Source of the DNA: Vibrio cidicii
Lineage (GTDB): Bacteria; Pseudomonadota; Gammaproteobacteria; Enterobacterales; Vibrionaceae
Reading direction: 5' to 3'
NCBI RefSeq assembly: GCF_009763805.1
Contig: NZ_CP046803.1
Span: 1,178,001 to 1,242,000, forward strand
DNA length: 64,000 nt
Position 1 is the first letter of the stretch; each line of letters opens with the position of its first letter. The notes under the pieces are model-generated. The model was not told the DNA's origin. It made no database searches and saw only the letters and a program-made list of their open reading frames with translations. Both the position numbers and the translations under genes were made by a program. Shown here one piece after another: positions 6,250-63,650 of the stretch.

Positions 6250-7429
6250 ATGATGGCTATGAATAGAAAATTTCTTGTGACCTTCAGTACGACGCTGCTT
6301 GCCAGTTTGAGCAGCGTGACGTCTATCGCTGCGCCTACCGTCGTACCCGATCCTCCGCAATTGAGTGCCAAAGGCTATGTGTTGATGGATTACCACTCCG
6401 GTGAAGTGATCGTCGCCAAAAACGCCGATGTGAAGATGAACCCCGCCAGCTTAACCAAGTTGATGACCGCGTATGTAGCAGGGCAGGAGATGAATCGCGG
6501 CAATATCCGTTTTGACGATCAAGTGGTGGTGAGCCGCAATGCTTGGGCGAAAAACTTTCCTGACTCTTCAAAAATGTTCATCGAAGTCGGTACGTCGGTC
6601 AGCATGAGCGATCTGTATCGCGGGCTTATTGTTCAGTCCGGCAATGATGCCAGCGTGGCGATTGCCGAGCATGTTGCCGGCAGCGAGGCGGCGTTTGTCA
6701 GCTTAATGAACGCTTGGGCGGAAAAACTCGATCTGCAAAATAGCGCGTTTACCAATCCGCATGGGCTCGACAGCGATGGGCTCTACTCTACCCCGCGTGA
6801 TATTGCCAAGTTGGGCCAAGCGATTATCCGCGATTTACCCGCCGTCTACCCGTTTTACAGTGAGACGTCGTTCACCTACAACGGCATCACTCAGTACAAC
6901 CGCAACGGTTTGCTGCGCGATCGCAGCCTCAATGTGGACGGAATGAAAACCGGCTTTACCAGCGGTGCAGGGTATAGCCTCGCCACGTCCGCGACCAGCG
7001 GCAACATGCGTCTTATCTCGGTGGTGATGGGCTCAAACAGCACCAGTAGTCGGGAAATTGAGAGCAAGCAATTGCTCAGTTATGGCTTTCGCTTTTTCGA
7101 TACGATTTCGCCTACCGATGTAAACCAAGTGCTAGCCACACCAAGGATTTGGATGGGTAGTCAAGACGAGTTGAAAGTAGGCATCGTCGAGCCAGTTTTC
7201 TTAACCTTAACTAAAGGTGAGAGTAAGAATCTGCATGCCGAAACTGACCTATACCAGCGACATCACCGCGCCAGTGAAAAAGCAGCAGGTGGTCGGTCAG
7301 GTGCTGTATAAAATCGATGACAAGGTGGTTAAACAGGTGGACTTGGTGGCATTAGAAGCGGTGGATGAAGGCAGCCTGTTTAAACGTGTAGTCGATTGGT
7401 TTAAGCGTTGGCTGAGCAATCTGTTCTAA
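6250..7429 (+). CDS. dacA: D-alanyl-D-alanine carboxypeptidase (PBP5/6 type), frameshifted near its 3' end
   Basis: Low-molecular-mass penicillin-binding protein that trims the terminal D-Ala of peptidoglycan stem peptides in the periplasm. A signal peptide ends about SIAAPTV. The active-site motifs are all present: SLTK (about residue 67), SGN (about 129) and KTG (about 233). The reading frame breaks at GAAAC 7240-7244. Removing one A joins GESKNLHAE to LTYTSDITAPVKKQQVVG and yields the normal C-terminal domain and the amphipathic membrane anchor (LFKRVVDWFKRWLSNLF). Corrected length is about 392 residues. The start could be 6250, 6253 or 6259. A 14-bp repeat crosses the stop codon. Confidence 0.92.
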
Positions 7430-7455
7430 GCAATCTGTTCTAAGCAATCTATTCA
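7414..7455 (+). repeat. Three tandem 14-bp units over the dacA stop codon
   Basis: The unit AAGCAATCTGTTCT occurs at 7428-7441, with one mismatch at 7414-7427, and degenerate at 7442-7455. The first copy encodes the last dacA residues and the TAA lies at the first junction, so duplication has not altered the protein. Confidence 0.7.
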
Positions 7456-7500
7456 AAGCAAACTGTGAAAAGCAAAGCGCTAAAACTGCAAGACCAAACA

Positions 7501-7531
7501 AAAATCCCTTTGCTAGTGCAAAGGGATTTTT
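7501..7531. terminator. Bidirectional terminator between dacA and the convergent CBS protein gene
   Basis: AAAAATCCCTTT and AAAGGGATTTTT form a hairpin with T-runs in both directions between two convergent genes. Confidence 0.8.
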
Positions 7532-7543
7532 AATCCGGTGCGA

Positions 7544-8836
7544 TCAGTTGACTTCAACCCGAGTGACCAATAGCTGGTCAACTTTGTAGTTGTCGATGTC
7601 GACCACTTCAAACTTGTATCCTGAGTAGATGATGGAGTCGGTGCGGCGCGGGATCTTGCGCAGCATATACATCATAAAACCAGCGATGGTTTCGTAGTTT
7701 TGCGGGTGAGGAAATTCATCAATGTTGAGCGCGCGCATCACGTCGGTGATGGGGGTGACACCATCCACCAGCCAAGAGTTGTGGTCGCGGGCGACGATTT
7801 GCTCTTCCCCCTCGGCCAATACCCAAGTGCCCATTACGGCGCTTTGCAAATCGTTAAACGTGACGATCCCCAGCACCAACGCGTACTCGTTCATGATCAC
7901 CGCAAAATCGACGCGGCTGTTTTTAAAGTACTCCAGTGCTTCAGAAAGGCTCAGCGTATCCGGGATGATTGGACAGCTTTGCACCATGCTACCTTCTTTT
8001 AGGTTAAGTGGCTGGCCGTTAATCAGGCGCGTTAGTAGCTCTTTCGAGTCGATGTAACCTTTGATCGCGTCCAACTGATCATCGCAGACCAAAAACTTAT
8101 GGTGCGGGTCTTCGGAAATCTTCTTCTTCAACACCTCTTCATCATCTTTCATCGACAGATAGGTCAGGCTTTCACGAGGCGTCATCGCCGACGTCACCGG
8201 GACCGATTGCATCTCAAACACGCTCTCCATCATCTTCTGCTCGCCGCGATCGAGCACGCCCGCTTCGGCTCCCGCATCCATTACCGCGTAGATATCGTCC
8301 GAGGTAATATCGTCGTTGCGCTCAGCAGGCACGCTAAAGAGGCGGAAAATGGTGTTGGCCAAGCCGTTGAAGATCCATACAAAAGGTTTTAGCAGTGAAA
8401 TGCAGATCAGCATAGGTCGAACCAATGTCATAGCAATTTTTTCCGGCATTACCATGGCGATACGTTTCGGCATCAAATCCGCAAATAGAATGAATAAGCT
8501 AGTGACCAAAATAAAAGAGCAGAAAAAGCTTAACTGGTTAACCCAAGCGGCAGGCAGCCAGCTTTCCAAGAGTGTTTTGATATGCGGAGTAAAGGCCGAT
8601 TCACCGACAATACCGCCCATAATGGCAACCGCATTTAGGCCAATTTGTACCACGGTGAAGAAGTTGCCGGGATTGCTCTGTAAAGCCAGCACGAGAGTGG
8701 CACGTTCGTCTCCCTCTTCAGCAAGTTGACGGAGGCGAATTTTTCTCGCCGCAGCCAAGGCGATTTCAGACATAGAAAAGAAGCAGCTGGTGAGTATCAG
8801 CGCAATGATGATTGAGAAGTTCTCAAATAAACTCAT
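7544..8836 (-). CDS. CNNM-type membrane protein with CBS pair and CorC/HlyC domain
   Basis: 430 residues from the ATG at 8836, which is preceded by GGA at good spacing; a TTG at 8860 is less likely. Order of domains: an N-terminal DUF21/CNNM membrane domain with about four hydrophobic segments (starting SIIIALILTSCFFSMSEIAL), two CBS domains in the middle (MTPRESLTYLSM region and PIIPDTLSLSEAL region), and the C-terminal CorC_HlyC transporter-associated domain (VDGVTPITDVMRALNID). Family members are linked to Mg2+/Co2+ efflux or ion homeostasis and are often labelled hemolysin without evidence of lysis. Inner membrane. Confidence 0.88.
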   Translation of the reverse strand: MSLFENFSIIIALILTSCFFSMSEIALAAARKIRLRQLAEEGDERATLVLALQSNPGNFFTVVQIGLNAVAIMGGIVGESAFTPHIKTLLESWLPAAWVNQLSFFCSFILVTSLFILFADLMPKRIAMVMPEKIAMTLVRPMLICISLLKPFVWIFNGLANTIFRLFSVPAERNDDITSDDIYAVMDAGAEAGVLDRGEQKMMESVFEMQSVPVTSAMTPRESLTYLSMKDDEEVLKKKISEDPHHKFLVCDDQLDAIKGYIDSKELLTRLINGQPLNLKEGSMVQSCPIIPDTLSLSEALEYFKNSRVDFAVIMNEYALVLGIVTFNDLQSAVMGTWVLAEGEEQIVARDHNSWLVDGVTPITDVMRALNIDEFPHPQNYETIAGFMMYMLRKIPRRTDSIIYSGYKFEVVDIDNYKVDQLLVTRVEVN

Positions 8837-9028
8837 GATGAGTGTCCAAGTAGCGTTCAATAAAATCCACCAACGAATGGAACAGGAAGATTGGGTTGGT
8901 GGCTTGTTTGCTTAAACTAGAAAGATATCCAAATCGCGGCTCGGTCGATGGAGCCGATTCGGCTTGGCTATTCTATACGTAAGGACGAAATAGATGAAGA
9001 AACGGATGCAGTGCTCACCACCTTTTAA

Positions 9029-9050
9029 CGCTATGAAGAGAAACATAGCG
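9029..9050 (-). terminator. Probable terminator of the mrp operon
   Basis: CGCTATG and CATAGCG form a stem 12 bp after the mrpG stop. The following bases on the minus strand (TTAAAAGG) are only modestly T-rich. Confidence 0.4.
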
Positions 9051-9061
9051 CACAGGCTTTG

Positions 9062-9371
9062 TTAATCTCGCGAGGAATCACGATTACGCCAGAAAGTATA
9101 GCCGGCTTGTTGTGTGACTTTACCCAGTAAATGAGCCGCAACGGGAGCGGTCAGAAAAATAAACAGCATGATGCCGACCAGTCGTGATATCACGCCAATC
9201 TCAGGCATACAGAGCGCGACAGCAAGGAGCAATAAAGACAAGCCTGCGGTACCGGCTTTGGTGGCGGCGTGCATGCGAGTATAGAGATCGGGCATGCGCA
9301 AAATGCCTAGGCTCGCAAATAGCGTGAATAAGGTGCCGAGAAACCAGTAAGAGGGCCGCTAACATCGACAT
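9062..9371 (-). CDS. mrpG: Na+/H+ antiporter subunit MrpG, frameshifted
   Basis: Small membrane subunit of the multisubunit Mrp antiporter. The start ATG overlaps the mrpF stop (TAATG). The reading MSMLAALLLV then breaks at GAAAC 9340-9344 (GTTTC on the coding strand). Dropping one base gives MSMLAALLLVLGTLFTLFASLGILR followed by the family hallmark MPDLYTRMHAATKAGTAG. Three hydrophobic segments are seen. Corrected length is 102 residues, normal for the family. It is the last gene of a tightly overlapping operon. Confidence 0.88.
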
Positions 9372-11611: not shown

Positions 11612-11962
11612 TCTTCCTCCTCTGAGCGACGCATCTCATCGACGTCCGCGCTGCGAGTCTCAAAATAAGCTCGGTAAAACAGCATCAAAGCAAAAACCAG
11701 TAAGCCAAAACCGATCACAATGGCGGTTAAAATCAGCGCTTGTGGCAGCGGGTTTCGCCGCACCTTCCGCTGGTAACAAGGCTCCTACCTCAATTAATGG
11801 TGGTGAGGCGGGGGTTAAGCGTCCTGCGGTAAAAATGGCCAAGTTCACCGCACTACTGAGGAGGATCAGGCCAAACAATAAGCGCAGTAAGTGTCGCTCT
11901 AGCATTAAGTAGATACCGGCGGCGACAAAAACACCGACAACAATGCTCCATAATCCTTCCAT
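11608..11962 (-). CDS. mrpC: Na+/H+ antiporter subunit MrpC (NuoK-like), frameshifted
   Basis: NuoK-like subunit with three helices. The frame breaks at GTTTC 11752-11756 on the plus strand (GCGAAACCC on the coding strand). Removing one A restores NPLPQALILTAIVIGFGLL, the conserved third helix, and places the stop in the ATGA overlap with mrpD. Corrected length is 117 residues. Without the correction the chain runs into PAATSADFNRHCDRFW, which resembles nothing and would uncouple mrpD, so I treat the break as an error in the sequence. Confidence 0.88.
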
Positions 11963-16846: not shown

Positions 16847-18179
16847 ATGGATAGGGTTAAATATGGCGTTTTAAGCGTGGTCGCGCTTGTCACACTGCTG
16901 TGGATTCAAGTGGAGCCATCATTACTCACCTCGGATAATTTCTTCCAATGGCGATCGGGATTAATACAGTATTCTGGCATTCTGTCTCTCATCCTGATGT
17001 CGACCGCGATGGTGCTCGCGCTGCGTTTGCCGATAATCGAGACTTGGACGCAAGGGTTGGATAAAGGATACCGCATTCACAAATGGCTCGGCATTGCCGC
17101 TGTGCTGCTTGGAGCGTTCCACTGGTTGGCATATCATTTACCTAAATGGTTGATTTCACTAGAGGTGATGTCGAAACCTGTCCGGTTTAATGGCTCTGGT
17201 CCGAATGCGAACTTGACGGGCTGGGCGCAGTGGCTGAAATCACTTAAACCACTGGCATTGGAAAGTGGCGAATGGGGGTTTTATCTATTACTCGCTCTAC
17301 TTGTGCTCTCGCTTTGGTCTGTTGTTAAGTATAAACCCTTTCGCCTCACTCACCGCTTAATGGCTATCGTTTACTTGCTATTGGCTTTTCATTCGTTTGC
17401 GCTGCTAAAACGTGCCTATTGGGGGGAGCCTATCTACTGGCTGACCACCAGTTTTCTTGTGCTTGGCTCTTTAGCCGCTTTGTACAGCCTTGCGGGATTG
17501 GTCGGACGCCGAGCGCGTTACTCTGCGTCAGTAAAAGCGTTACGCTACTGTGCGTTAAGTCAGACACTGGATCTCACATTGGAAGCCGAGGCTAAGTGGC
17601 CAAGCCACCAAGCCGGGCAATTTGCTTATCTCTGTTTTGCCGGGGAAGAGCCGCATCCTTTCACTATTGCCAGCGCACCGAAACTCTTCTCAGCTTAGGT
17701 TTTTGATCAAAGAGCTGGGGGACTTTACTACCGGGTTACATCAACGCTTAAGTCAGGGGGATGTTTTGCAAATAGAAGGGCCGTACGGCAAGTTTTCGTT
17801 TACCGCTGAGCGGCCTCAAATCTGGATTGGAGCGGGCGTCGGTATCGCGCCGTTTATGGCAGGCCTAGAGTGGTTCGCCAGCCAACAAAGCCATCCGCAG
17901 ACACATCTGTTTTTCTGTTGTCAGCAGGCAGAGCCACGGTTATGTGAGGAGCTTAAGCAAAAAGCGCAACAAGCCGGAGTGTCATTAACGGTCATGGACT
18001 CAAGCAAGGATCTACTACTCTCGGCGCAAAGTATTGCCCAGCAATGTGGGGATTTGCGTCAGTTCGAGTTCTATTTCTGTGGACCTGCGCCGTTTTCAAA
18101 CGCATTGAAAAAAGCGCTCAAACCATATCGAGTGAAGGTTGATAAGGCTTTCCACGCGGAAAAATTTGTGATGCGTTAG
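16847..18179 (+). CDS. Ferric reductase-like transmembrane flavoprotein, frameshifted
   Basis: About 443 residues when corrected. N-terminal half: six or so transmembrane helices with paired histidines suited to heme binding (IHKWLGIAAVLLGAFHWLAYHL region split as IHKWLGIAAV and FHWLAYH; THRLMAIVYLLLAFHSFALL). C-terminal half: FAD-binding (HPFTIASAP) and NAD-binding (IWIGAGVGIAPFMAGL, FYFCGPAPF) domains of the FNR fold. The break lies between them at GAAAC 17680-17684; deleting an A reads APNSSQLRFLIKELGDFT. The ATG at 16847 is preferred to GTG 16835. Likely moves electrons from NAD(P)H across the inner membrane; the acceptor is unknown. Confidence 0.85.
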
Positions 18180-18896: not shown

Positions 18897-19482
18897 TTAG
18901 AATAAATAGCTCAGATGGAAGTCAAAGCCACTACCATCAAATTTCTCTCCAGTCGAAGAGACTTTGTAATCAATGTTGGTGTATTTTGCGCCAACGGCAA
19001 AACGACCGATCGCTAGAGGAGCAAAAGCGTATTCGTACTGCACGGTAAAGCCTGCTGCGTCATCAAACTCGACTTCGCCATCGCAAACATTGGTTACTTT
19101 ACACTCTAGTGTGACCGCCGTGTGGTAGGCGATACCTGCGCCAATTTTATGCTCGTTGAATGCTTTAAACGCGATGAACTCAAGCGGAAACGCGATCGAA
19201 AGTCACATCACCATTTGAGGCAGTGAGGCTATCAAACTTATAGCCGATGGTGCCACGTAATAGAAAATCTTGCGGAAGCGCTACATCGACACCACCGAAG
19301 AAAGAGACGCCTTGGTTCCCTTTGATTTTGTCGCTTTCGCCATTATCGTAAATGCCTTTAAACAGGTCATCACCGCCGAAACCATAACCAACTCCTAGTA
19401 CGCCGGAAAGTCCGTTTGCATTCACTGAAGAAGACGCGATTAAGCCCAAGAGAAAAACTTTAGATAAAGCCAACTTTTTCAC
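18897..19482 (-). CDS. Outer-membrane beta-barrel protein, frameshifted
   Basis: 194 residues when corrected. GTG start at 19482 with AAGGA upstream, signal peptide to SSSVNA, then alternating hydrophobic strands and a C-terminal FHLSYLF that fits recognition by the Bam complex. The frame breaks at GAAAC 19187-19191; with one base removed FDRVPLEFIAFKAFNEHKIG follows on, and a cysteine pair (LECKVTNVCD) appears in a loop. Small eight-stranded barrels of this kind are common in vibrios; no specific function can be given. Confidence 0.75.
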
Positions 19483-19978
19483 AGATAGTTCCTTATTGAT
19501 ATTTAACGTTTTTATAATATCTATACACATTACGATTACTTGTTGTTGTATTTGTGCTATATAGACAGGGCGAGAAAAATATCATGTAGTTAATTGGTTC
19601 AGTTTATAATTATTTTAAATATCAATGGTGACTCACAAAATTATTAGTTATTGATATTATTGTTTTTTTTGCTTATGTTCGTTAGCCCTATTTTTCTACA
19701 CGCTTGACATCGCCATTGTTCAATTGTTAACCTCTCGACATCCTTTCTTTCGGAGATGACGCCAACATGGATATCTAACTTTCCTTATACCGATGATGTT
19801 TCATTCATTCGGCTCTTGGAGTTAGTTGGCGTAGTTGCGTTTCCGATTATCTTGATAATCTAAATTAGTTTAACCTTGTTTACCCGATACTCCGTGCTAT
19901 TTGTGCGGATTAATACTCGGGTTAGAGGGTAATTTTAGCCGACTGACTTCTTACTGTTTTTAATAGTAAGGGGGTCTC
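19483..19978 (+). promoter_or_regulatory. AT-rich intergenic region and structured leader of the ABC-F gene
   Basis: The first 270 bases are AT-rich and show no gene. From 19756 to 19863 a 35-codon ORF (MTPTWISNFPYTDD..., hydrophobic second half) is preceded only by a weak CGGAG. Two stem-loops follow: 19892-19922 (ACCCGA/TCGGGT with inner CCG/CGG pairing) and 19950-19970 (CTTACT/AGTAAG). The second stem ends directly in the AAGGGGG ribosome-binding site at 19968-19974, so folding could limit access to it. This layout resembles translation-attenuation leaders of antibiotic-resistance ABC-F genes, but that is inference. Confidence 0.4.
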
Positions 19979-21559
19979 ATGCCCAATATTCATGCTCATC
20001 AGTTGAGCTTTCAATTAAATAGTGGTGAGTGGTTATTCCATTCGCTGGATCTTCATTTACCCGCTGGAAAAACGGGTTTAGTCGGGCGCAATGGCATCGG
20101 AAAATCTGTCTTGCTACAACTACTCATCGGCAAACTCACTGCAACAACAGGCCATGTTCACGTTGGTGCAACGATAGGCTATTTCGAGCAAAATTCTCAA
20201 GAGCAAGAACGTGATGCAACGATTGCGACCTACTTAGGCATGGCAGAAACCGCTTGCGGCTTTTCGCGCCATTGAGGCTGGGAGTGTGGACACTGAACAC
20301 TTTACCCAACTTGGTGAGCAGTGGAACATCGTTGAAACGATACAAAGCACATTAGATGAGCTGAGAATCACGCTGCCACCTGATGCGAGCTGCCGTGAAC
20401 TGAGCGGCGGGCAGTTTACTCTTTTAAAGCTCAAGCGCTTGTTTCTGGCGTCAAGTGATGCCTTAGTGTTGGATGAGCCCACCAATCATCTCGACACATT
20501 GAGCAGAGAGTGGCTGATAACTCAGTTGCGAAAAGAACAGCGTCCAGTTTTAGTCGCCAGTCATGATCGCGCTTTGTTGATGGAGATGGATCGCATCGCG
20601 CGTTTGACTTCAGAAGGGCTGCATTGGTTTGAAGGTAACTATGCGGCGTACCATAGTCAGTGGCAATTACAGCAACAAGCACTAGAGAGAAAAGTCGCCC
20701 AACTGAAAAGTGAGCAAAAATCGATTGCTCGAGAGTTGCAAAAAAGCCGTGAAAAAGCGCAACAGCGCGCAGCTCAGGGGCGCAAAGCGCTAAGAACAGG
20801 TAGCCAGCCGAAGATATTGATGGACGGCAAAAAAAACAGTGCGGAAAAAAGTCGCTCTGCAGCTGTCATCAATGGGCAAAATCAACTGAAACGTAATCAG
20901 CAGCAGTTGTTGAGTTTGTCCGCAAAACGAGTGCGTGAATCGCCAACGGTAATCTACCTGACTGATGTTGAGAGCAGCAAAAATCGGCAGCTGCTGAGTG
21001 TTGAGCGTTATCGCTCTTGCGGTGCAAATCATCCGTTATTGGATTTTCAAGTTAGGCAATTTGAGCACCTGCGCCTAAGTGGTGCCAATGGCTGTGGTAA
21101 AAGTCGCTTACTCAAAGCGATCGCGGGGTTGCATCAAGAGTATCAAGGTCAAATCAAGCTCAACACATCGGTGGTTTATTTAGATCAAGATTACCGTTTG
21201 CTTGAGCTTGAACGCAGTGTGCTGGAAAACCTCGTGGATTTTTGTCCAAGTTTAGGTGAGGGTGATGCTCGTTTGCTGCTGGCTGGGATCGGCTTTCGTG
21301 GTGACTCAGTACATCGCAAAGCGCGACATCTGAGCGGTGGGGAAAAAATGAAACTAGCGATGCTGATGGTTAGCCATGTTGACGGCGATCCTTTGCTGCT
21401 ATTGGATGAACCGGATAACCACTTAGATATCGAAGCGAAAACAGTCTTAGCCACCGCGCTGCGCGACTATCGGGGGCTTTGATTCTCGTTAGTCACGATG
21501 ACTATTTCGTTGAGGCCGCAAAATTGGACAAAGAGTGCAAAGTGGAGTCGCTCGGCTAG
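19979..21559 (+). CDS. ABC-F family ATPase, two frameshifts
   Basis: 526 residues when corrected. Two ATP-binding cassettes without membrane segments: Walker A GRNGIGKS and GANGCGKS, signatures LSGGQ and LSGGEK, Walker B LVLDEPTNHLD and LLLDEPDNHLD, with a charged linker (about residues 215-290) between them. ABC-F proteins act on the ribosome. The first break is at GAAAC 20246-20250 (corrected GMAEPLAAFRAIEAG). The second is at the G-run 21475-21479, where one extra G restores YRGALILVSHDDYFVEAAKL with the H-loop of cassette 2. The strong AAGGGGG site precedes the start. Whether it gives antibiotic resistance or is a housekeeping factor is unclear. Confidence 0.85.
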
Positions 21560-28491: not shown

Positions 28492-29943
28492 AGCGGCAGC
28501 TCCAAAATACAACGGGTTGGATGACGACGGATAACCAGTTTGCCGCCCATTTGGGTGATGAGTTTTCGCACCAACTGTAAGCCAACGCCCATGTTATCTG
28601 TGTTTGGGCGAGAGTGAGTGTCTTGATGCCTCGAAAGTCGTTTGCACAGACGTTGGTAGAAAGAGGGAAATTCACCGCAATCTTCCACTTCAATATGCAG
28701 CGTTTGTGCAACCACGCTCACCGTAAGGCGAATAGGCGGCGCGCCATGTTGCTTGGCATTGCTGAGTAAGTTGGTGATGCACAGCCCAAGCCAGTAATAA
28801 GGCAGTTCGAGCATTGGGTCGTGTTTAAGATGAAGCTCAACCTCAAAGCCCTCGATACAATGCTCGATAAAGTCACTCAACTGCGCTGGGTGGCGCGCTA
28901 TGGTGTCGTGGCTCGGGCTCAAGTAGTGGCGACTGGTTTCGCTCAGTTGTGCTAGCCGCTGATGATCGGCCATTAATCGCCCTAAGCTCTCTTGTGCCTT
29001 GGGGGATAACTCATCAAATTGGCTGCGTAGTGATTCGACGGTAAACCCTAAACTGGTGATGGGCGTGCGCAGTTTCGTGAGTCAGCAGTTGCAAAATAAA
29101 GCGCCGCTCGCGCCCTTCTTGATAGCGCAGCCAAAGTGAACGCAGCGCAGCGCCAAACGCAAGCAACACGCCGATCACCAAACCGCTATACAGCAACGCA
29201 TGACTGCTAACGCGCTGATTAAAGCAGAGGTTGCTGTAACGCTCATCGCAAGGCTTTTGCGCTTGATAAGGCTCAAGTGTGAATGGCAGTGGTGCGGTGA
29301 GTGCGCGCCACTGCACGCTCGAAAGCACATGCCAGCCCGCTTCGCTGCTGAGCCACAGCTCATCATTTGGCGCAAGATACAGGCGAAAGCCGTTGAGCAG
29401 TGCATCTACCCCCGCAGCGCCCGGTCGTTGCCACAAGGTATGTAACGGATGATAACGGCTCGCCAAGGTGAAACGTGTTGGGTGCGCAGAGGCAAAGGTT
29501 GCCTGCTCTGCATCCGGTAAGTGTTCAATATAGCGATCTGCGTAGCTGCCTCCCGCCGGATGTTGCCACGCAACACGCTGAAACCACTCTGCGCCGAGCG
29601 GTGTTTGGCGGCATAACGCCAACTCAAATTCGACCGCTTTCGCCAAATACGGCGAAGAGGAGTTGAGCGGCTGGCACTGCTTGGCCGTGGCGGCTAAATC
29701 TGCGATGTCTTGCCACGTATATTGAGTAAAATCAGGATATTGACTGTGACTGCTGAGGAGCGCTAACGGGTATTGATTGAGGGTTTGGCTCGCCACCAGT
29801 GGCGTGCTTTGCTGCTCAAGCGCTGCGCGATAAAAAATCGACCAACGCTGAGTTTCAGGCAGGTCAATACTGGCCAGTGCGGAAGCAGCCCATAAGCTAC
29901 ACAGTAAGAGGCTTAACCAGCGGTGAGTCAGCAGCAACGTCAT
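28488..29943 (-). CDS. vxrA: Sensor histidine kinase VxrA, frameshifted in the H box
   Basis: 484 residues when corrected. Signal sequence or first membrane segment (residues 5-24), a periplasmic sensor of about 230 residues of the DUF3404 kind, a second membrane segment (ALLYSGLVIGVLLAFGAAL), then the kinase core. The frame is broken exactly at the phospho-accepting histidine motif: GTTTC 29072-29076 on the plus strand. Removing one base restores LTHELRTPITSLGF. The ATP-binding domain shows NLLSNAKQHG and NMGVGLQLVRKL. First gene of vxrABC. An intact kinase is very likely in the organism because partner genes are complete and coupled. Confidence 0.85.
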
Positions 29944-30138
29944 GATTTAAATACTTAGTATTGGGTTCATGCCAATAGTAGCCGCTTCATCACAAGATTT
30001 GTAATCCGAGTGTCAACAAAAAGGAAAGAGGAGGGAAGTTGGCAGCAAAGTCAACCTTGTTGTCGGCTTTGGAATGATGCTGCTATTTGTTACCAGAAAA
30101 ATCATCGGGTCACATAGAGTGTCATCCATAATTTAAGC

Positions 30139-30681
30139 CTACCAGTAAACAGGATTTGCTATCGCTTCTAAGCATGTGGGTTTACCGCTGATCGGGGTGA
30201 TCGCTTTCCCTGTTAACGATTGAGCAAGCCAACCTTCAGGATAGGACAAAGTCAATGGTGCTTGAATCCTCTCTTCATCAATCGCAGTAAATCCGACTTT
30301 GGAGTAAAAGCGAATATCGCCGTAGGTCATAACAATACTGACACCTTTTGCTTTTAACGTCTCTAATCCAAAACGGATCAGAGCTTGTCCAATGCCTTGA
30401 CCGTGCCATTTCGTTGCCACCGCTACTGGCGCGAGAAGAAACACGTTTTCCTCATTAGGAAATGAGAGCTTGGAGAAAAGGATGCTGCCGACAACGCGTT
30501 GGTGGTCATCACATGCGACAAACACGAAAAGATCATCTTCTTGAAGGGGTTGGCTGAGAAAATCGGAGACCAGCTTTCCGATCACAGTGCCTTCTTCTGA
30601 TCCTTCAGAATCAGAAAAGGTGTTTTGGAACAGGTTGATAATCTCTGGTTTTTGTTGTGATTTGTATAAAGAAAAATTCAT
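30139..30681 (-). CDS. GNAT-family N-acetyltransferase
   Basis: 180 residues. The acetyl-CoA loop is seen as PVAVATKWHGQGIGQALI (about residues 90-107), followed by GDIRFYSKVGF, the usual beta-strand 5 and helix 4 region of YhbS-like enzymes. The acceptor is unknown. It starts 10 bp after the stop of the MerR-methyltransferase gene, so the two form an operon and probably act on, or respond to, the same compound. Confidence 0.88.
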   Translation of the reverse strand: MNFSLYKSQQKPEIINLFQNTFSDSEGSEEGTVIGKLVSDFLSQPLQEDDLFVFVACDDHQRVVGSILFSKLSFPNEENVFLLAPVAVATKWHGQGIGQALIRFGLETLKAKGVSIVMTYGDIRFYSKVGFTAIDEERIQAPLTLSYPEGWLAQSLTGKAITPISGKPTCLEAIANPVYW

Positions 30682-30691
30682 TCTTGAGTCT

Positions 30692-31870
30692 CTAGTGGTT
30701 AAGTTTCAAAACAAAGTACTGATAAGTAAAATCTTTGGCAGCACTTCGTTCATAGATAGCAATCTCCTTTTCTATGTCAGACAAGGCTTGGGAGTTTGTC
30801 AGCCGAAGTTTTAACTCTTGGACGCGGTTTTGCAGCGGTAACCAGTAGTTTTGCCATGCATCGATGCCTAATGAGAAATGCTCCATCACTTCATACCCCA
30901 GCTTTTTGAAAAGCTTGATTCGAGAAGGTATCGATTGGATATCTGGGTATTCGGATTGCCAAAATTGTTGAGCTTCCGGTTCTGGATTCTCAGTGAGCCA
31001 GACCAAATCACTGACCATCAAGATGCCGTTATCGGCTAAAAAAGGTTTCCACTGCTTGAGTGCTTTCTCCATACCCATGATGTAAACACAGCCTTCAGCC
31101 CAAATCGCATCAAAACTTTTCGCGGCAAAAGGGAGTGCGGTCATGGAACCCAAGACTGGGGATATCCGCTCTTTCCATGGCGAGTGCTGGCGTTGCTTCT
31201 CAAGTTGTTCAATCGCGATGGGTTCATTATCGACAGCAGTAATGTGCGCCGAACTGTTTTCTGCCAGCAGGAGAGTTGAAAGGCCCGTTCCGCAGCCGAC
31301 ATCGAGGATATGCTGCATGCTTTGTATCGACATCAAGGAAATGGCTTTTAAGGTATCTTGCTCGCTACCGGGGCTCCAGCGTTGCAAAGTGGCAAAAACT
31401 GTCATGAAATCTTGCATATAGCTGTCATGTTCATTCATATCTTTCGATAACCATTTTAATCGGAGCGCCTCTTTTTCACTGTAACCTTGCGTGTTGAGCC
31501 AGATTAAGTAAGCGTTTGGCGCATGTTTACTGAGAGAGTGGTGTAACTCTCTTTGTGGACGTTCGCCGAGCAAGGCTAAAAGCAACTCACGAGCGCGAAC
31601 TTTTTTCTCAATTTCATCATCGAGTTGGCTTAAACGACTTTCCAATAGGCTTCGGTCTAGTTTCGCCTGTAAGCACTCTTCACACTCTTTTAATGAAAGC
31701 CCCGCACTCTGAAGCTGTTGGATAAGAAACAGTTGCTGCAGATCACTCTCGCTGTAGTAGCGATAGCCATTGTCAATACGTTGCCCCCGAATCAATCCTA
31801 ATTTCTCGTAGTAAAGTAGTGTGGTTCGAGAGAGCCCCGCCTTGACCGCTAATTCTGAAATTAAATACAT
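30692..31870 (-). CDS. MerR-type regulator fused to a SAM-dependent methyltransferase
   Basis: 392 residues. Residues 1-70 are a MerR winged helix (MYLISELAVKAGLSRTTLLYYEKLGLI). A coiled-coil dimerisation helix covers about 72-105. Residues about 165-390 form a class I methyltransferase with the SAM-binding motif HILDVGCGTGLSTLLLAE, an acidic motif II (ITAVDNEP) and FDAIWAEGCVYIMG. In ordinary MerR proteins the C-terminal part is a small effector-binding domain; here an enzyme replaces it. The gene has its own MerR-like promoter upstream (19-bp spacer). What is methylated is unknown; the substrate could also be the inducer. Confidence 0.9.
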   Translation of the reverse strand: MYLISELAVKAGLSRTTLLYYEKLGLIRGQRIDNGYRYYSESDLQQLFLIQQLQSAGLSLKECEECLQAKLDRSLLESRLSQLDDEIEKKVRARELLLALLGERPQRELHHSLSKHAPNAYLIWLNTQGYSEKEALRLKWLSKDMNEHDSYMQDFMTVFATLQRWSPGSEQDTLKAISLMSIQSMQHILDVGCGTGLSTLLLAENSSAHITAVDNEPIAIEQLEKQRQHSPWKERISPVLGSMTALPFAAKSFDAIWAEGCVYIMGMEKALKQWKPFLADNGILMVSDLVWLTENPEPEAQQFWQSEYPDIQSIPSRIKLFKKLGYEVMEHFSLGIDAWQNYWLPLQNRVQELKLRLTNSQALSDIEKEIAIYERSAAKDFTYQYFVLKLNH

Positions 31871-33992: not shown

Positions 33993-34899
33993 TTATCCTT
34001 TGCCTCGTGTGCGATTGGCATTTGGCTTCGCGTTCTTTTCGATAAACTCATAGATCATGCCTGCGATGTCCTTTTGCGTGGCTTTTTCGATCCCTTCTAG
34101 GCCGGGAGAAGAGTTCACTTCCATGACCACTGGGCCGTTTTTCGACTGGAGAATGTCCACACCACAAAGGTTCAGTCCCATTGCTTTGGCCGCATTGATC
34201 GCGGTCGCACGCTCTTCTTTGTTCAGACGAATCAGTTGCGCCGTTCCACCACGGTGTAGATTGGAGCGGAAACTCACCCTCTTTCGCCTGACGCTTCATC
34301 GCGGCGATGACTTTGTTCCCCACCACAAAACAGCGAATATCAGCGCCTTTGGCTTCTTCGATAAACTCTTGCACCATGATGTTGGCTTTCAGTCCCATAA
34401 AGGCTTCGATAACGCTCTCTGCCGCTTTGCTGGTTTCAGCCAATACCACGCCGATGCCTTGAGTGCCTTCAAGAAGTTTGATCACCAGCGGGGCTCCACC
34501 AACGTTTTTGATCACGTCTTGGATGTTGTCTGGATGATGTGCAAAACCAGTGCGTGGTAAGCCAATGCCTTTGCGCGATAACAACTGCAAAGAACGCAGT
34601 TTGTCGCGCGAACGGCTAATGGCGACCGATTCGTTGATACAGAAGGTTCCCATCATTTCAAACTGGCGAACCACTGCAGTACCGTAGAAGGTGACTGAAG
34701 CGCCAATGCGTGGAATGACAGCGTCATACTCCGGCAATTCTTCACCCTTGTAGCGAATCTTAGGGTTGTTGCTCGTAATGTCCATATAGCAGTGCAACGT
34801 GTCGATGACATCCACTTGGTGTCCACGTGCTTCACCAGCCTGCTTTAAGCGAGTGGTGGAATATAGACTCTCATTACGAGAAAGAATAGCAATACGCAT
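33993..34899 (-). CDS. rimK: Ribosomal protein S6-L-glutamate ligase RimK, frameshifted
   Basis: 301 residues when corrected. ATP-grasp enzyme: N-terminal [15 protein letters not shown], glycine-rich loop [13 protein letters not shown] (about 141-153), metal-binding C-terminal end [18 protein letters not shown]. The break is at GAAAC 34269-34273; deleting a base gives [14 protein letters not shown], the conserved catalytic segment of RimK. Adds glutamate residues to the C-terminus of S6. AAGGAAATGCC precedes the ATG. Heads a likely two-gene unit with the RimB-like protease. Confidence 0.92.
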
Positions 34900-36638: not shown

Positions 36639-36978
36639 TTACAAGTAGTTTGCGTCAGCTAGCTCGCTTGCTAGAACCGATTTGACTTCTGCACGTGCGT
36701 TTAGCCATTCAAGCACTTGCGCTTTTTGCTCTTCTGTCGCGCTTGCGTAACGCTCTTTAGCACAAACGAATCCTTCGAAATGTTCTAGACCACCGCCGCC
36801 AAAACACAAACCCAACGCATCGATGAAATCAATGAAATCATCGACAAAAACGTCATAGCGATCAAAGTCGTGGATGTCGGTTTCACAGCTGATTTCGAAA
36901 CCAAGAATAGCGAAACTCGCCTAAAAACAGTTTTTTGCGAAGACGACGGTTTTTGTTTTCCACTTTATCTAGTTTCAT
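36639..36978 (-). CDS. yggL: YggL/DUF469 family protein, frameshifted
   Basis: 112 residues when corrected. The family start NRRLRKKLFLGEF is followed, after removal of one base at GAAAC 36912-36916, by AILGFEISCETD and then VFVDDFIDFIDALGLCFGGGGLEHFEGFV, with a C-terminal WLNARAEVKSVLASELADANYL. YggL is a small ribosome-associated protein that binds the 50S subunit in E. coli. The strong family match on both sides of the break shows that the gene is normally intact. Confidence 0.82.
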
Positions 36979-40163: not shown

Positions 40164-40219
40164 TAGGTACTAGGTACTAGGTACTAGGTACTAGGTACTA
40201 GGTACTAGGTACTAGGTAC
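40164..40219. repeat. Eight perfect tandem copies of TAGGTAC
   Basis: 56 bp of uninterrupted 7-bp repeats between the binding-protein gene and the end of the chemoreceptor gene. The first copy on the chemoreceptor side supplies its TAG stop codon when the nearby GAAAC is corrected. Likely variable in copy number between strains. Confidence 0.97.
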
Positions 40220-41749
40220 GGAAACTTGGTCATGTGTCGAGCAATGTTCTGACTTAAGTCAAGTACCTCTTCGGTGCGCTGGGCATTTTGAACTGCGCCA
40301 GAGGAGACTTCATTGGACGCTTCAGATGCCTCGACAATCGCTTGACTGATCTCTTCAACCGCTTGTCTTTGTTCCTCAGTGGCTTGAGATATTTGGCCGT
40401 TGCGATCAGAGATCACGCTGATCAGTTCTTGCACTTGATTAACCGAATCTTGTGAATCACTGACGCGGGTTGCCGTTTTCTCAAGCAAAGAGGCTATACG
40501 GGACAGCTCTTGTTCTACCGAGGTAGTGGCACTACCTAAGGTGGCAATGTTTTTCTGGATTTGCTCGGTTGATTGGCTGGTTTTTACCGCCAAGTTGCGC
40601 ACTTCATCGGCGACCACGGCGAAGCCACGGCCTTGTTCACCAGCGCGAGCCGCCTCGATGGCTGCGTTAAGCGCCAGTAGGTTCGTCTGCTCAGAGATAT
40701 CATTAATCACGTTGAGCACGGTGGTAATCTTCTCCCCTTCGTTAACCAACACATGCATCTTGTCGTTTACCTGATTCATTTCATTGCGCATGTTAATGAT
40801 TTCATTCGCAGAATGTTCGATGGCTTGATTGACTTGATTGGCAAGGGAGGTCGCGGTGTGGGCTTGGTCGGCTGTTTCAGAGGCCGTGTCTGCGACGATA
40901 GAGACGGAATGGTTAAGCTCGGTTGCCGCCGCCGCAACGGTGCTCAGTTGATGTTTCTGCTGCTCAAGCTTGTTGGCATTCTCACGGGCATTGCTGCCGC
41001 TTTCGCGTGCTTTCTCTTCCAATGTGACGGATGAATGGCTGACATCTTGCACAATCACACGCAAGCTTTCGGTAAAGGTGTTGATGCCATCGGTAATGTC
41101 ATCAAACTCTTTGTACTTCGCTGGGGCGAGCTTGTTAGCCAGATCGCCGTCGCCGGATGAGAGTGATTGAATCACGTTGGTGAGTTGGCGTATCGGTTTC
41201 AAAACGGTAGCTGCCAGCGCAGCGATAACAACGACACTGATAATCAGAGCAACGATGCAAAGTTCTACGAGATTGAGAAGTAGAGACTGTGCCAGCTTTT
41301 CATCTAAAATACGCGTGTTGTAGTAAACGTTCACTTTGCCGACGGATTTCTCCTCGCCATAATCGGAGAAAAGCAGCTCTTTGCTCACCATCATCTCGGC
41401 TGAAAATGCACTTTTATCTTTGACGTCCACACCAGCTTTATCGTTTTCACTTTGGCTCGGTTGTAGGAACACCAAGTCACTTCCTTGAGTATCTTGCAAC
41501 TGAATTGCGGAAATTTCCGGTAAGTTTAGCTCAGCAGAAATCGCTCTTTTAGCGGTATCAAGGTCAAAATCCCACACCGCTTTTGGGAGGCTGATGGCCA
41601 TACGTTGGCTGGTGTTGTTAACACTCAGCATCAGTTCAGCAGTCAAGCTTTGCTTAAAGTTTTGATGCTTAATAAAGGCAGAAACCAGAAGAAACTAAGG
41701 TGACTGCGAAAATGACTTGGGCGAGAAATACGATTTTTAAACTTTTCAC
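40212..41749 (-). CDS. Methyl-accepting chemotaxis protein, two frameshifts
   Basis: 511 residues when corrected. GTG start at 41749 with [19 protein letters not shown], first membrane segment about 5-26; the break at GAAAC 41691-41695 (or 41681-41685) truncates the N-terminus in the raw frame. A periplasmic domain of about 130 residues (small Cache-like) precedes a second membrane segment (about 155-180), HAMP, and a signalling domain with the tip [20 protein letters not shown]. At the end, GAAAC 40221-40225 shifts the frame into the heptamer repeat; corrected, the protein ends ARHMTKFRT. It lies between solute-binding protein genes. Confidence 0.88.
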
Positions 41750-43023: not shown

Positions 43024-43774
43024 TTACTGGTAATTGCCTTTGATTGACTCTTGCTCAAATTTTTGTAGTTTTCCCTCCGCCAGTACTTTGGCTAGACCGC
43101 GGTTGAAAGCATCTAAGATCTCTTGCGCTCTGGGGGATTTTTTCGGCACGATGAGAAAGTAGTCTCTTTCGACGATCGGTTTGTCATTCATCTCGATTTG
43201 ATCGGTTAAGCCGAGTCGCATGACGGTCGTTTGGCCAACATTGGAGTCTTCCAAAACAATGTCTAAACGTCCACCTGCAAGTTTCTTATAGTTTCGCGTC
43301 GGCATCGGAGATACGGGAGATCTTCACCACCCCTTGTTTTTCTAAATCCTCAACACCATAGGCATAGCCAATGACTCCACCGATAGCGTATTTGGCGAGA
43401 TCTTCAGGTTTACTCCACATAATCTGTGCGCCCTTACGTTGGAATAAGGATGTTTTTAGAGTCAGCACTTTATCTGAGTAGAAGAAATGCTGCGCTCTCT
43501 CTTCATTTCTGCTCCACAGAAACGAGCCGTCTAACTCACCGTCCTGTGTCTGTTCAAAACCCCGTTTCCAAGGTAAGTAAACAAACTCAACGTTGTAGCC
43601 TTCTGCGGCGAAGGCTTCGGTGACTAAATGAGAGATATAACCTCCATGTTTGAGTGACTTGGATTGGTAAGGTGCCCATTCGCCATTGGCGAGCCTAACG
43701 GTGTTGGCCAAGCTGCTGGATGAAAACAGTGCGATAAGAATAAAAGAAAAAAATCTGGTACTTAATCGGTTCAT
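43024..43774 (-). CDS. Periplasmic solute-binding protein (SBP_bac_3 type) 3, frameshifted
   Basis: 249 residues when corrected. Signal peptide to SSLANT, then VRLANGEWAPYQSKSLKHGG and FVYLPWKRGFEQTQDGELDGSF. The frame breaks at GTTTC 43291-43295 on the plus strand; dropping one base gives RISDADANYKKLAGGRLDIVL. C-terminal part: AQEILDAFNRGLAKVLAEG. Like the other two binding proteins here it has no permease or ATPase beside it. Confidence 0.85.
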
Positions 43775-44656: not shown

Positions 44657-45326
44657 TTAGTGCGCTTCAAATGCGAGGGCTTTTTTCTCAATCTGACGGA
44701 AAAGTAAGGTCAAGATCGCATTGATGGTGAGATAAAACGCCCCGGCGACACCGAAGACGGTCAAGGTATCGTAGGTTTGTGCATTGATGCGTTGTGCATA
44801 ACCCATCAAATCCATAATGGTAATGGTGCTGGCCAGCGACGTCCCTTTGAATACCAAAATCACTTCATTCGAGTAAGCTGGTACAGCACGTCTTAGCGCA
44901 TAAGGCAGTAATACTTGTAAGGTTCTGATTTTATCCATGCCCAATGCACGGCAAGCTTGCCATTGTCCGGAAGGGATTGCGTTAAATGCGCCTTTAAATA
45001 ACAGAGAAACTGTAGGCTGCCGTATTGAGTGCCAGTGCCAGCATGGCGCAAAACCAAGGTTGGCTAAACCAGTGCCATAGAAAACTGTCGCGAATCCAAT
45101 CAAACTGTCCCGGGCCGTAATAGATCAAGAAAATCTGTACCAGCAGCGGCGTGCCAGTAAACAGGGTGATCAGGCTGCGGCTTAGCCAATGCAACACTGG
45201 CACTCGTAAAATCAATGTGGTGGTCATTAAAAGCGACAGGATACAGCCCACAAGCAGTGAAGCGACAGTTAGCTCTAAGCTGGTGGCTAAGCCTTGCAGT
45301 AATTGCCAAACATGTTGCTCTTTCAT
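44657..45326 (-). CDS. artM: Arginine-type ABC transporter permease ArtM, frameshifted
   Basis: 222 residues when corrected, about five membrane helices. The break at GAAAC 45006-45010 falls in the family loop; corrected, it reads [27 protein letters not shown] (shown as [15 protein letters not shown]), then the permease motif [28 protein letters not shown]. The start overlaps the artQ stop (ATGA). Last gene of artPIQM. Confidence 0.87.
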
Positions 45327-46013
45327 GCTTTGCCTCCTTCACTGATACTCATTCCTTGAATGGAGAATTTCTTATCGATCACTTTTACCAAGCGTTGAGT
45401 GATTAGTGTAATAAGCAGATAAATCGCCGCCGCAGTGGCATACCAAGTAAAGGCCTCATGAGTTGCTGCTGAGGTTAACTGCGCCTGTTTGAGCAGGTCC
45501 GTCACGCCGATCAAGGAAACTAAAGCGGTATCTTTTAGCAGCACCAACCACTGGTTGGTTAACCCAGGCAGGGCGTGGCGAATGGCCTGTGGCAGGACGA
45601 TGCGAAAAAACGCATGACTTTTGGCTATGCCCAGCGCACTGGCCGCTTCACGTTGTCCTCTGCCAACCGCTTTGAGTGCGCCGCGCAGGGTTTGCGAGGC
45701 ATAAGAGGCGAAAATCAGAGATAACGCCACCACGCCAGAAAGAAACGGACTAACTTCGACGAAATCACCGGTAAGTAAAAACAGCACCTGCGTCGAACCG
45801 AAATAGATGAATAGGACAACAAGAATTTCTGGCAGGCCGCGCAGCAAGGTGACCAACAGCGTTGTTGGCCACTTGACGACGACAAGCCGAGCCATCTCGC
45901 CACTGGCGAAAATGACCGCCAGAAACCAGACCAACCAACAGGCTGACCACTGCAAGTTGGACGGTCATCCAGCTTGCTTGAACCAGTGAAAGTGAGTAGC
46001 CCGTCAGCCCCAT
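45323..46013 (-). CDS. artQ: Arginine-type ABC transporter permease ArtQ, frameshifted
   Basis: 229 residues when corrected. Starts [20 protein letters not shown] two bp after artI. The break is at GAAAC 45922-45926; with one base removed, [20 protein letters not shown] is continuous. The EAA loop of ABC permeases is seen as [31 protein letters not shown]. Forms the inner-membrane channel with ArtM. Confidence 0.87.
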
Positions 46014-57350: not shown

Positions 57351-57370
57351 ATTTTAGTTTTATCAATCGC

Positions 57371-60500: not shown

Positions 60501-60525
60501 GGAAATAATGAAATTCATTATTTCC
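60501..60525. promoter_or_regulatory. Near-perfect 25-bp palindrome in the lldP-lysR intergenic region
   Basis: GGAAATAATGAA and TTCATTATTTCC flank a single central base: 12-bp perfect arms. It is 18 bp before the lysR start and 130 bp before lldP, the place expected for an autoregulatory and activation site of the LysR protein. Confidence 0.75.
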
Positions 60526-60542
60526 AAAAATTACATAATAAG

Positions 60543-61442
60543 ATGCGAGCAGATGACCTAATTTTGTTTTGCCAAGTGGTAGAACAGGGCAATTTTAGTA
60601 AGGTGGCAGAAGAAAATGGCCTTACAAATTCAGTAGTTAGTAAAAGAATTGCCAGACTGGAAGAAGAGATAGGCGTGCAGCTATTGTATCGAACCACGCG
60701 AAAGTTGACGTTAACCGAAGCAGGCAAGGCGTTGTTACACAGTGCTAAAAATGTGAAGCAAGCCACGATGGAAGCGATGGACGCGATTTCCGGTTTCGGC
60801 GAAAACGTCAGCGGCCACATCAAAATGTCGGTGCCGACCATCTCGGGCGATCTGATTTTAGCCGACGCGGTGGCTGAGTTTTGCAACCTGCATCCGGGGC
60901 TAACCGTTGATATGTCGCTGGACAACCGCTTTGTTGACTTAATCGCTGGAGGATACGATCTGGTGATCCGCACTGGCTATTTGGAAGATTCCAGCCTGAT
61001 CGCGCGTCACATTCTCGACTCACAGTGGGTGGTGTGCGCATCGCCCTCGTACATCGCCAAGCATGGTAAACCGATCAAACCGGATGATTTGACCAACCAC
61101 AACTGTCTGCAATACGCCTATCAAACCACGGGCGCGTCAGATTGGGAGTTTAAAGGCAGCAAAGGCAACTACATTGTCAAAGTCTCTGGCTGCTTTTCTA
61201 CCGACAACGCCACCGCTTTGCGCAAAGCCGCGCTCGGTGGCCACGGTATCGCTTATGTGCCACGTTGTTTGGTCTACCACGATTTTCGCAACGGCCAGCT
61301 GGTGGATATTTTTCCAGAGCAAGTGGGGAAAAAGCTTGGCATCTACGCCGTCTATCCATTTACGCGTCAACCACCGAACAAAGTTCGCCTGTTAATTGAA
61401 CACATTCGCGCGCGCTATCTCACCATCTCGCACTATTTCTGA
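60543..61442 (+). CDS. LysR-family transcriptional regulator
   Basis: 299 residues. N-terminal HTH (FCQVVEQGNFSKVAEENGLTNSVVSKRIARLEEEIG, seen as FSKVAEENGLTNSVVSKRI) and effector-binding domain ending IRARYLTISHYF. Divergent from lldP with a palindromic operator between them, so it likely controls the lactate genes. The ATG is close to the operator with no strong Shine-Dalgarno site. Confidence 0.9.
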   Translation: MRADDLILFCQVVEQGNFSKVAEENGLTNSVVSKRIARLEEEIGVQLLYRTTRKLTLTEAGKALLHSAKNVKQATMEAMDAISGFGENVSGHIKMSVPTISGDLILADAVAEFCNLHPGLTVDMSLDNRFVDLIAGGYDLVIRTGYLEDSSLIARHILDSQWVVCASPSYIAKHGKPIKPDDLTNHNCLQYAYQTTGASDWEFKGSKGNYIVKVSGCFSTDNATALRKAALGGHGIAYVPRCLVYHDFRNGQLVDIFPEQVGKKLGIYAVYPFTRQPPNKVRLLIEHIRARYLTISHYF

Positions 61443-61503
61443 ACCGCGATCTATTCAGCATTTCGAGGATTGTTGCCAATTTAACCTTGAAAAAGCCGCC
61501 TCT

Positions 61504-61535
61504 CACCCCGAACTAAGGGGTGAAAATTATTCTTA
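61504..61535 (+). terminator. Probable terminator after the LysR gene
   Basis: CACCCC/GGGGTG stem with CGAACTA loop followed by AAAATTATTCTTATT, a weak T-rich tail. Confidence 0.5.
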
Positions 61536-61602
61536 TTAGCAAGGAACAGCCGATGGTAGGCGATTCCTTTCATTCCAAGCATAGAAAGACCACAGGGACG
61601 TT

Positions 61603-63650
61603 ATGCAATATATAAACACACGAAAACAAGAACTTATCGAACACTATTTTGGCCATCCTGTCGCGGATCCTTATCGCTGGTTGGAAGACGATCGCAGCGA
61701 GGAAACCGCGCAATGGGTGGATGGACAAAACGCCGTGACCTTCGATTACTTAGCGCAAATCCCGTTTCGCAATGCGCTGCGTGAACGAATCGCGGCCAGC
61801 CAAAATTACGCCAAGTACTCTCAACCGTTTCGTGCGCGGCGAGTATACCTACTTCTATAAAAACGATGGCCTGCAAAACCAAAGCGTGTTGTATCGCAGT
61901 AAAGGTGAACAGGACGAGGCGCAGGTATTTCTCGACCCCAATGGCTTTTCACCTGATGGCACCACTTCGTTAGATCAGGTTTATTTTTCTAAAGATGATT
62001 CGCTGGTGGCGTACACCATTTCTGAAGGGGGCAGTGACTGGCGCAAGATCTTTGTGCTCAACACACAAACTGGTGAGCAGATTGAACCAGAAATTGTCGA
62101 TGTGAAATTTACCGGCGTGGCGTGGCTCGGTAGCCAAGGTTTCTACTATTCTCGCTATGATAAACCGCAAGGCAGTGAGCTCTCGGCGCGCACTGAGCAG
62201 CACAAGCTCTATTATCATCAGCTCGGCACCCCGCAATCAGAAGATGTGTTGGTGTTCGGTGAAAATGAGGGCGAAGTGCATCGCTATGTCTCTGCTCAAA
62301 CGACAGACAATGATCGCTATTTGCTGATTAGCGGCCATGAGTCGACCTCAGGTAACCGGCTGTTTTATGTCGATCTACACAGCGAGGAGCGCCAAGTCTT
62401 CACGCTGCTGGAGCATGTTGACTCGGACACCGAGCTGCTCGACGCAACCGACAGCCACTTTATCCTCTACACCAACTTGCATGCCCCTAACGGTAAAGTG
62501 GTCAGCGTAGATATTGCCAGTGGCGAGTGGCGCGATGTGATCGCCGAGCAAGAGCAGCCTTTAGAGGTGGTAACCGCGGGCGGCTATCTGTTTGCCACTT
62601 ACATGGTCGATGTGCTGTCGAAAGTGGTGCAGTACAGCTACCAAGGCGAGCTGATCCGAGAAATTCAGTTACCCGGACAAGGTAGCGCGAGCGGTTTGGA
62701 AGGGAAAAAGTCGCAAACAACGCTCTACTATACCTTCACCAACTACGTGACGCCGCCGACCATTTTTGCCTTAGATGTACACAGTGGCGAATCGGTGGTG
62801 TATCGCGAATCGAGTGCGCCATTTAAGCGTGAGGATTTTATCTCTGAGCAGGTGTTTTACCCCTCAAAAGATGGAACCTTGATCCCGATGATCATCTCTT
62901 ACAAAAAAGGCATTCAGTTCAACGGCAAAAACCCGACCATCCTTTATGGTTATGGTGGTTTTGATGTCAGCCTCACACCTGCGTTTTCCGGCATGGTTTC
63001 AAGCTGGCTTGAGCTGGGCGGCGTGTACGCGGTAGCTAACTTACGTGGCGGCGGTGAATATGGTAAAGCATGGCACAACGCCGGCACGCAAATGCAAAAG
63101 CAGAACGTGTTTGATGACTTCATCGCGGCGGCCGAGTACTTGATTGAACAGCAGTACACAGACAGTGCGCATTTAGCGATTCGCGGCGGATCCAATGGTG
63201 GCTTGTTGGTCGGCGCGTGTATCACGCAGAGGCCCGAAACTGTTTAAGGTCGCGCTGCCTGCGGTGGGAGTTTTGGATATGTTGCGCTATCACACCTTTA
63301 CTTCTGGTGAAGGTTGGAAATATGACTACGGTACTTCGGCGCAAAGTGAAGAGATGTTCCAGTATTTGTTGGGCTACTCTCCGGTACACAACGTCAAAGC
63401 AGGCGTTGCTTACCCTGCCACTTTAGTCACCACCGCCGATCACGATGATCGCGTTGTGCCTGCCCACTCCTACAAGTTTATCGCCCAGCTACAGCAAAAG
63501 CAGGCGGGGGAGAATCCTGTTCTGATCCGTATTGATGTCAATGCGGGACATGGTGCGGGAATGCCAATGAGTAAGATGATCGATCTGTCGGCAGACTTGT
63601 ATGCCTTCACTCTGTTCAACATGGGGATCCGTGAGCTCAGCCCAGCTTAA
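61603..63650 (+). CDS. Prolyl oligopeptidase (S9A), two frameshifts
   Basis: 681 residues when corrected. N-terminal beta-propeller ([18 protein letters not shown] start) and C-terminal alpha/beta hydrolase domain with GGSNGG (Ser), DDRVVP (Asp) and NAGHG (His). The first break is at GTTTC 61827-61831 (corrected [18 protein letters not shown]). The second is at GAAAC 63236-63240, beyond the serine (corrected [19 protein letters not shown]). No signal peptide. AGGGACG precedes the ATG. It cleaves short peptides after proline. Both breaks are in conserved sequence, so an intact enzyme is expected. Confidence 0.92.

Follow-up and report, generated by a model that had tools for sequence, protein, structure and literature searches.

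The stretch analysed here (hereafter the window) is 64,000 nucleotides of the Vibrio cidicii assembly GCF_009763805.1 (contig NZ_CP046803.1; G000 C1:1178001-1242000), a genome of 4.75 Mb in two contigs, in which conserved genes are broken by one additional base that turns GAAC into GAAAC, or GTTC into GTTTC on the other strand. The extra bases are, with high confidence, consensus errors of the assembly due to phosphorothioation of GAAC/GTTC by the Dnd system. It is close to certain that the gene breaks are a sequencing artefact and very likely that phosphorothioation is what caused the errors, and nanopore is the likely sequencing platform.

A previous sequence-only reading of the window had listed 16 coordinates at which a gene was broken at GAAAC and could be cured by one base fewer, and the letters hold GAAAC at 12 of them and GTTTC at 4. 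Among 227 genus genomes, the nearest collinear matches to a 9.6 kb query came from two relatives, G152 (91% identity) and G097 (two pieces, at 93 and 95%). Alignment placed a four-base form in at least one of G152 and G097 at all 16 sites; this form is GAAC/GTTC at 13 sites and a substituted one at three (GAAT at 19187, GTAC at 45006 and GAGC at 63236). Homologues carrying GAAAC/GTTTC at the same places, which the reading had named as evidence to the contrary, were found at 0 of the 16 sites in G152 or G097, with one exception in length at 7240, where G097 aligns the five letters GGAGC. The same one-base difference relative to G152 occurs at 5421, outside the earlier list. In addition, GAAC sites described as untouched near 290 and 3487 are present within two bases of those places. 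The window contains 140 GAAAC/GTTTC in total, and most are genuine sequence, because a relative also reads five bases at 102 of the 134 that could be aligned.

The pattern extends over the contig. Alignment of 984 kb of the window contig, the one contig of G000 compared in this way, with the 950 kb G152 counterpart yielded 60 blocks comprising 705,129 bases at 94.0% identity, and a one-base gap was counted only if no other gap lay within 12 columns and no block end was close by. Clean one-base gains in G000 numbered 236, of which 110 were GAAAC, while the reverse direction gave 142 gains in G152 with GAAAC in none (Fisher 1.2e-28). The 110 GAAAC gains occurred in all ten 100 kb bins with aligned sequence, at 5 to 16 per bin, and were split 63 to 47 between the strands. 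Of 4276 GAAC sites in G152, 950 were left out since they differ in G000 in some other way; the remaining 3326 were read in G000 as GAAAC at 101 (3.0%) and as GAAC at 3225. The control tetramers GAAG, GAAT, CAAC, CAAG, CAAT, TAAC, TAAG and TAAT showed 6 gains in about 35,200 sites.

The position of the gains relative to genes showed that they are not mutations, because 104 of the 110 GAAAC gains (94.5%) lay inside G152 open reading frames (ORFs) of 120 codons or more, as against 41 of the 126 other gains. The reverse gains were inside such ORFs in 21 of 142 cases, and the background for all GAAC/GTTC in the aligned part was 3765 of 4283. The GAAAC gains are thus under no purifying selection. 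The sequencing or base-calling bias that had been suspected from the window is supported by this tolerance of in-gene breaks together with the one-way direction and the lock to the motif.

The bases around GAAC strongly affected the error rate. By the base before G, the rate was 6.0% for A, 5.1% for C, 3.0% for G and 0.1% (1/1246) for T; by the base after C, it was 5.6% for T, 4.0% for G, 2.6% for C and 0.6% for A; and by the second base after C, 5.1% for G, 3.7% for C, 1.8% for A and 1.0% for T. Sites of the form MGAACKG (A or C before, T or G and then G after) were in error at 31 of 226 (13.7%), and no error was found at the 657 GAAC sites that have none of the three flank features (Fisher 7e-20 for T at -1, 9e-11 for A at +1 and 1e-13 for MGAACKG). 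Salmonella-type phosphorothioation prefers M at -1, K at +1, G at +2 and C at -2, according to PMC9521924, and the errors, taken as a proxy for modification, follow the first three of these preferences. This flanking preference explains the rule put forward in the sequence-only reading, that no T precedes and no A follows the broken motifs on the GAAAC strand. The rule holds at 16 of the 16 listed sites and fits 84 of the 140 GAAAC/GTTTC of the window (chance 2.8e-4); it stands as a strong preference and fails as an absolute, with T before the motif in 1 and A after it in 6 of the 110 contig gains.

A census of frame switches by protein comparison, in which a junction was counted as near GAAAC when GAAAC/GTTTC lay within 28 bases, gave a concordant picture. 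Over the 637 kb covered on the G000 contig there were 129 frame switches; 119 lay near GAAAC, including 19 of the 20 junctions supported by two or more proteins. Thirteen switches fell in the window, of which 12 were near GAAAC, and the remaining one shows that not every break is of the GAAAC type. G152 had a single frame switch in 99 kb covered and G097 also one, none near GAAAC. A further set of 80 named loci, kept as matches to one 680-residue window protein (the best being Vibrio sp. 05-20-BW147 with 85% amino-acid identity), showed 14 switches in 1067 kb covered, 3 near GAAAC, and is a weak control consisting mostly of drafts with no stated platform.

In Salmonella Cerro 87 and E. coli B7A, Dnd phosphorothioation is known to act on GAAC/GTTC (PMC9069010, PMC9521924), and therefore DndD and DndE were sought in the first genome searches made. 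Both were located on the other contig of G000, at C2:664993-666972 and C2:664643-664951, respectively. The modification genes dndB, dndC, dndD and dndE occur all together, with PADLOC bit scores of 571 for DndB, 305 and 824 for DndC in two pieces, 954 for DndD and 193 for DndE, and the restriction partner dndFGH is also present (DndF 763, DndG 619 and DndH 2221). The errors are accordingly locked to a motif in a genome that encodes a matching modification system, which can be assigned to Dnd on its genes and, by the proxy of the errors, presumptively on motif and flanks. The modified motif that the earlier reading had left unnamed is probably nameable as GAAC/GTTC phosphorothioation.

The dnd cluster itself seems to be affected. 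Of the two overlapping DndC pieces, one covers positions 1-135 of the profile and the other the part from 136 on. Only one GAAAC/GTTTC occurs within some 90 bases of the split; it is 3 bases away from where the pieces overlap, in the context ACAGAAACGTA, with A before and G after. A real break would lose the enzyme needed for the mark; if phosphorothioation causes the errors, dndC must function in the cell. A gene for an HNH nuclease-like protein (L082:16677-17555, +) follows dndH immediately and separates the restriction arm of the cluster from the modification arm. Another gene with weak DpdB and DndB matches (L082:18397-19560, +, G000:C2) adjoins dndE in the opposite direction, and a DGQHR domain-containing protein is annotated at the same place beside dndE in the three E. 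coli dnd clusters viewed. Moreover, DndC and DndE give strong matches to the PADLOC models PDLC03333 and PDLC03334, whose label, Type II methyltransferase, may mislead annotation.

These results suggest a path from modification to broken gene. The Dnd system would put sulfur in place of a phosphate oxygen at some of the GAAC/GTTC sites (GpsAAC/GpsTTC), and the sulfur would alter the signal of native DNA, most likely through a longer nanopore dwell or a shifted current over the A run. The base-caller would then add one A too many at a modified GAAC, and the consensus would retain it wherever modification falls on the same site in many cells. In wild-type Salmonella, 4.4% of GAAC and 3.9% of GTTC were reported to carry nanopore error signatures, as against 0.6% of GAAC and an undetectable share of GTTC in a dndC deletion (PMC9069010), and the error rate of 3.0% found here is close to the 3.9-4.4% of Salmonella sites. 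The system resembles the GAAC/GTTC type of Salmonella enterica Cerro 87 and E. coli B7A in its dndBCDE and dndFGH genes, its core motif and, with the errors as a proxy, in the subset of sites affected and the flanks favoured. It differs in that the modification is deduced here from assembly errors, the C at -2 is not seen, and about 3% of sites err as opposed to 12% modified in Salmonella (PMC9521924).

A second genome carries the signature. DndE was found in 29 of the 227 genus genomes, G152 and G097 not among them, in a search for DndE only. One positive genome, G195, consists of two contigs and is listed with a completeness of 95% and a contamination of 5%, figures to which frame breaks could give rise. 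All 11 of its frame switches were near GAAAC in 50 kb covered on seven 20 kb stretches, 8 of them resting on at least two proteins, and with G000 proteins added as queries the count became 13 of 13 in 59 kb. Leaving out one junction with three candidate GAAAC/GTTTC, the 12 with a single candidate had A before the motif in 9, C in 2, G in 1 and T in 0, and G after it in 5, T in 3, A in 2 and C in 2. At one G195 GAAAC site the extra base was absent from 7 of 9 aligned stretches of relatives. G195 provides a supportive test of the signature, not a blind one. Near 8964 and 9045 of the same locus (L245), G195 also has one-base gains outside GAAAC relative to 8 of 8 and 7 of 8 aligned relative stretches.

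Several observations weigh against phosphorothioation as the source of the errors, or limit how far the evidence for it carries. The C preference at -2 was not reproduced (G 4.2%, A 3.7%, C 3.6% and T 1.1%), this being a secondary preference and not a defining gene or core motif. In the census, 109 of the 129 junctions of the G000 contig rest on one comparison protein. G195 was picked after its pattern count and quality figures had been seen, with DndE alone searched, and is no blind replicate. Another DndE-positive genome with a high contamination figure, G187, showed 0 frame switches in 19 kb covered, and 14 other DndE-positive loci gave 2 in 113.5 kb, both near GAAAC and each resting on one protein. 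In E. coli, dndC-dndD was matched in 204 of 5426 genomes, and among the 60 matches listed K12a alone was one base off its type in the matched span; 25 kb of this dnd-positive genome, with 168 GAAC sites (9 MGAACKG), contained three one-base gaps and none at GAAAC. These gaps lay near an alignment end and in runs of G and T. Since G187 and K12a lack the signature, dnd alone is insufficient, and how an assembly was sequenced and polished would have to play a part. Affected assemblies would escape notice in RefSeq, which removes those in which many proteins are frameshifted.

Some side results bear on the same genomes. In the K12a record (L291, NZ_OZ259269.1), dndD and dptF are marked as frameshifted at 19178-21179 and 29648-31296; their gaps sit in long stretches of G and of T, as is ordinary for homopolymers and unlike the GAAC signature. 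The ratio of CMGAAACKG to CMGAACKG was tried as a diagnostic over the 227 genus genomes and dropped, as G028 (142/202) and G135 (115/164) stood out and neither is DndE-positive; the counts were 281/418 in G000, 208/511 in G152 and 201/411 in G097. Besides its full DndE match, G197 contains a partial DndE-like one, 7 kb away, that scores under the family cut-off (G197:C1:1916808-1917125 and 1924129-1924227).

Other origins of a motif-locked error were also considered. A base methyltransferase with a GAAC-containing motif could disturb base-calling in place of phosphorothioation. Motif methylases usually methylate near-completely; here 3.0% of GAAC err, at a rate graded over three flanks, which fits partial phosphorothioation better. 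Methyltransferase-mediated nanopore errors are documented (PMC10687267), but three of the four flank preferences published for phosphorothioation recur in the errors (PMC9521924), G000 holds a full dnd cluster and G195 has DndE, so that a methyltransferase is an improbable source. A generic weakness of base-calling for the GAAC k-mer in unmodified DNA, from a bad model or polishing, would likewise leave one-way, motif-locked errors. Such a weakness is hard to reconcile with the 3225 of 3326 GAAC sites that agree with G152, the single error among 1246 sites after T and none among the 657 without the three favoured flanks, or, as far as so weak a control allows, with 3 of 14 switches near GAAAC in the 80 named loci, and it is given very little weight.

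The remaining two alternatives take the extra base as real, and each is regarded as having a negligible chance. Insertions of one base in vivo at GAAC, for example at mutagenic sulfur-modified sites that could be slippage-prone, would be motif-specific and one-way as observed. However, the gains lie in reading frames at or above the GAAC background while other one-base gains avoid them, and about 0.2 frame switches per kb, dndC included, are hard to square with a living, modifying strain. Programmed frameshifting or other recoding at GAAAC gained nothing in its favour: the genes belong to unrelated families, the sites fall at arbitrary places, that at 5421 apparently lies between genes, and neither alignable relative has the five-base motif at any of the 16 sites.

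Two related phenomena are already published, namely read-level nanopore errors at phosphorothioates (PMC9069010) and consensus errors from other modifications (PMC10687267). The detection of phosphorothioates by ELIGOS likewise found errors at a few per cent of GAAC/GTTC, in native DNA and dependent on dndC; those were read-level errors scored against amplified DNA, whereas the present ones are a one-base insertion fixed in a finished consensus (PMC9069010). The errors treated by Modpolish were also motif-locked in the consensus, arose from a modification unknown to the base-caller and in one lineage were linked to a defence system, but they were mainly mismatches at GCAGC and GCTGG motifs, unlike the frame-breaking insertions described here, probably at a backbone modification (PMC10687267). 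No report of GAAC-to-GAAAC or phosphorothioate-linked one-base insertions fixed in assemblies was found in the literature searched, most subscription journals lying outside it.

Automatic annotation would report roughly a hundred spurious gene breaks on a single contig of G000, and the GAAAC signature can warn curators of other dnd-positive assemblies. A faulty assembly may also double as a rough map of the sulfur tag. The basis of GAAC site choice in phosphorothioation is called unclear in PMC9521924, and the signature may allow what decides it to be studied without reads. We lean, with some reserve, towards the view that uncorrected public dnd-positive assemblies hold a fossil map of sulfur sites and their flanking code that needs no reads, and that site choice in Vibrio is nearly that of Salmonella.

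The sites of the window and the gene pieces beside them are collected in the table below. One of ten pieces picked from broken genes had no family match in the family scan, and the families found include D-Ala-D-Ala carboxypeptidase, RimK-type ligase, ABC transporter, chemotaxis receptor and prolyl oligopeptidase. The earlier statement that essential or housekeeping genes are hit is borne out in part, for conservation but not for essentiality. The scanned genes look ordinary in kind, and it is as an inadvertent epigenetic record that the errors deserve attention.

Five-base motifs with an extra base in the window, their form in the relatives G152 and G097, and neighbouring features
Feature	Position	Strand	Form in relatives	Context
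GTTTC	5421..5425	-	GTTC in G152, GGCC in G097	between + strand ORFs 3221-5401 and 5496-6074
114-aa ORF overlapping site 5421	5213-5557	-		
GAAAC	7240..7244	+	GAAC in G152	piece 6250-7311, D-Ala-D-Ala carboxypeptidase (Peptidase_S11)
GAAAC	9340..9344	+	GAAC in G097
GTTTC	11752..11756	-	GTTC in G097
GAAAC	17680..17684	+	GAAC in G097 and G152	piece 17622-18179 with NAD_binding_1
GAAAC	19187..19191	+	GAAT in G152
GAAAC	20246..20250	+	GAAC in G152	next downstream piece 20286-21482, ABC transporter ATPase
GTTTC	29072..29076	-	GTTC in G097 and G152	piece 29014-29943 with DUF3404
GAAAC	34269..34273	+	GAAC in G097	piece 34048-34899, RimK-type ATP-grasp
GAAAC	36912..36916	+	GAAC in G097 and G152
GAAAC	40221..40225	+	GAAC in G152	piece 40198-41646 with chemotaxis receptor domain
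GAAAC	41691..41695	+	GAAC in G152
GTTTC	43291..43295	-	GTTC in G152	piece 43286-43774, solute-binding protein
GAAAC	45006..45010	+	GTAC in G097 and G152
GAAAC	45922..45926	+	GAAC in G097 and G152	piece 45323-45955, transporter permease
GTTTC	61827..61831	-	GTTC in G097	piece 61772-63247, prolyl oligopeptidase family
GAAAC	63236..63240	+	GAGC in G097 and G152	end of piece 61772-63247

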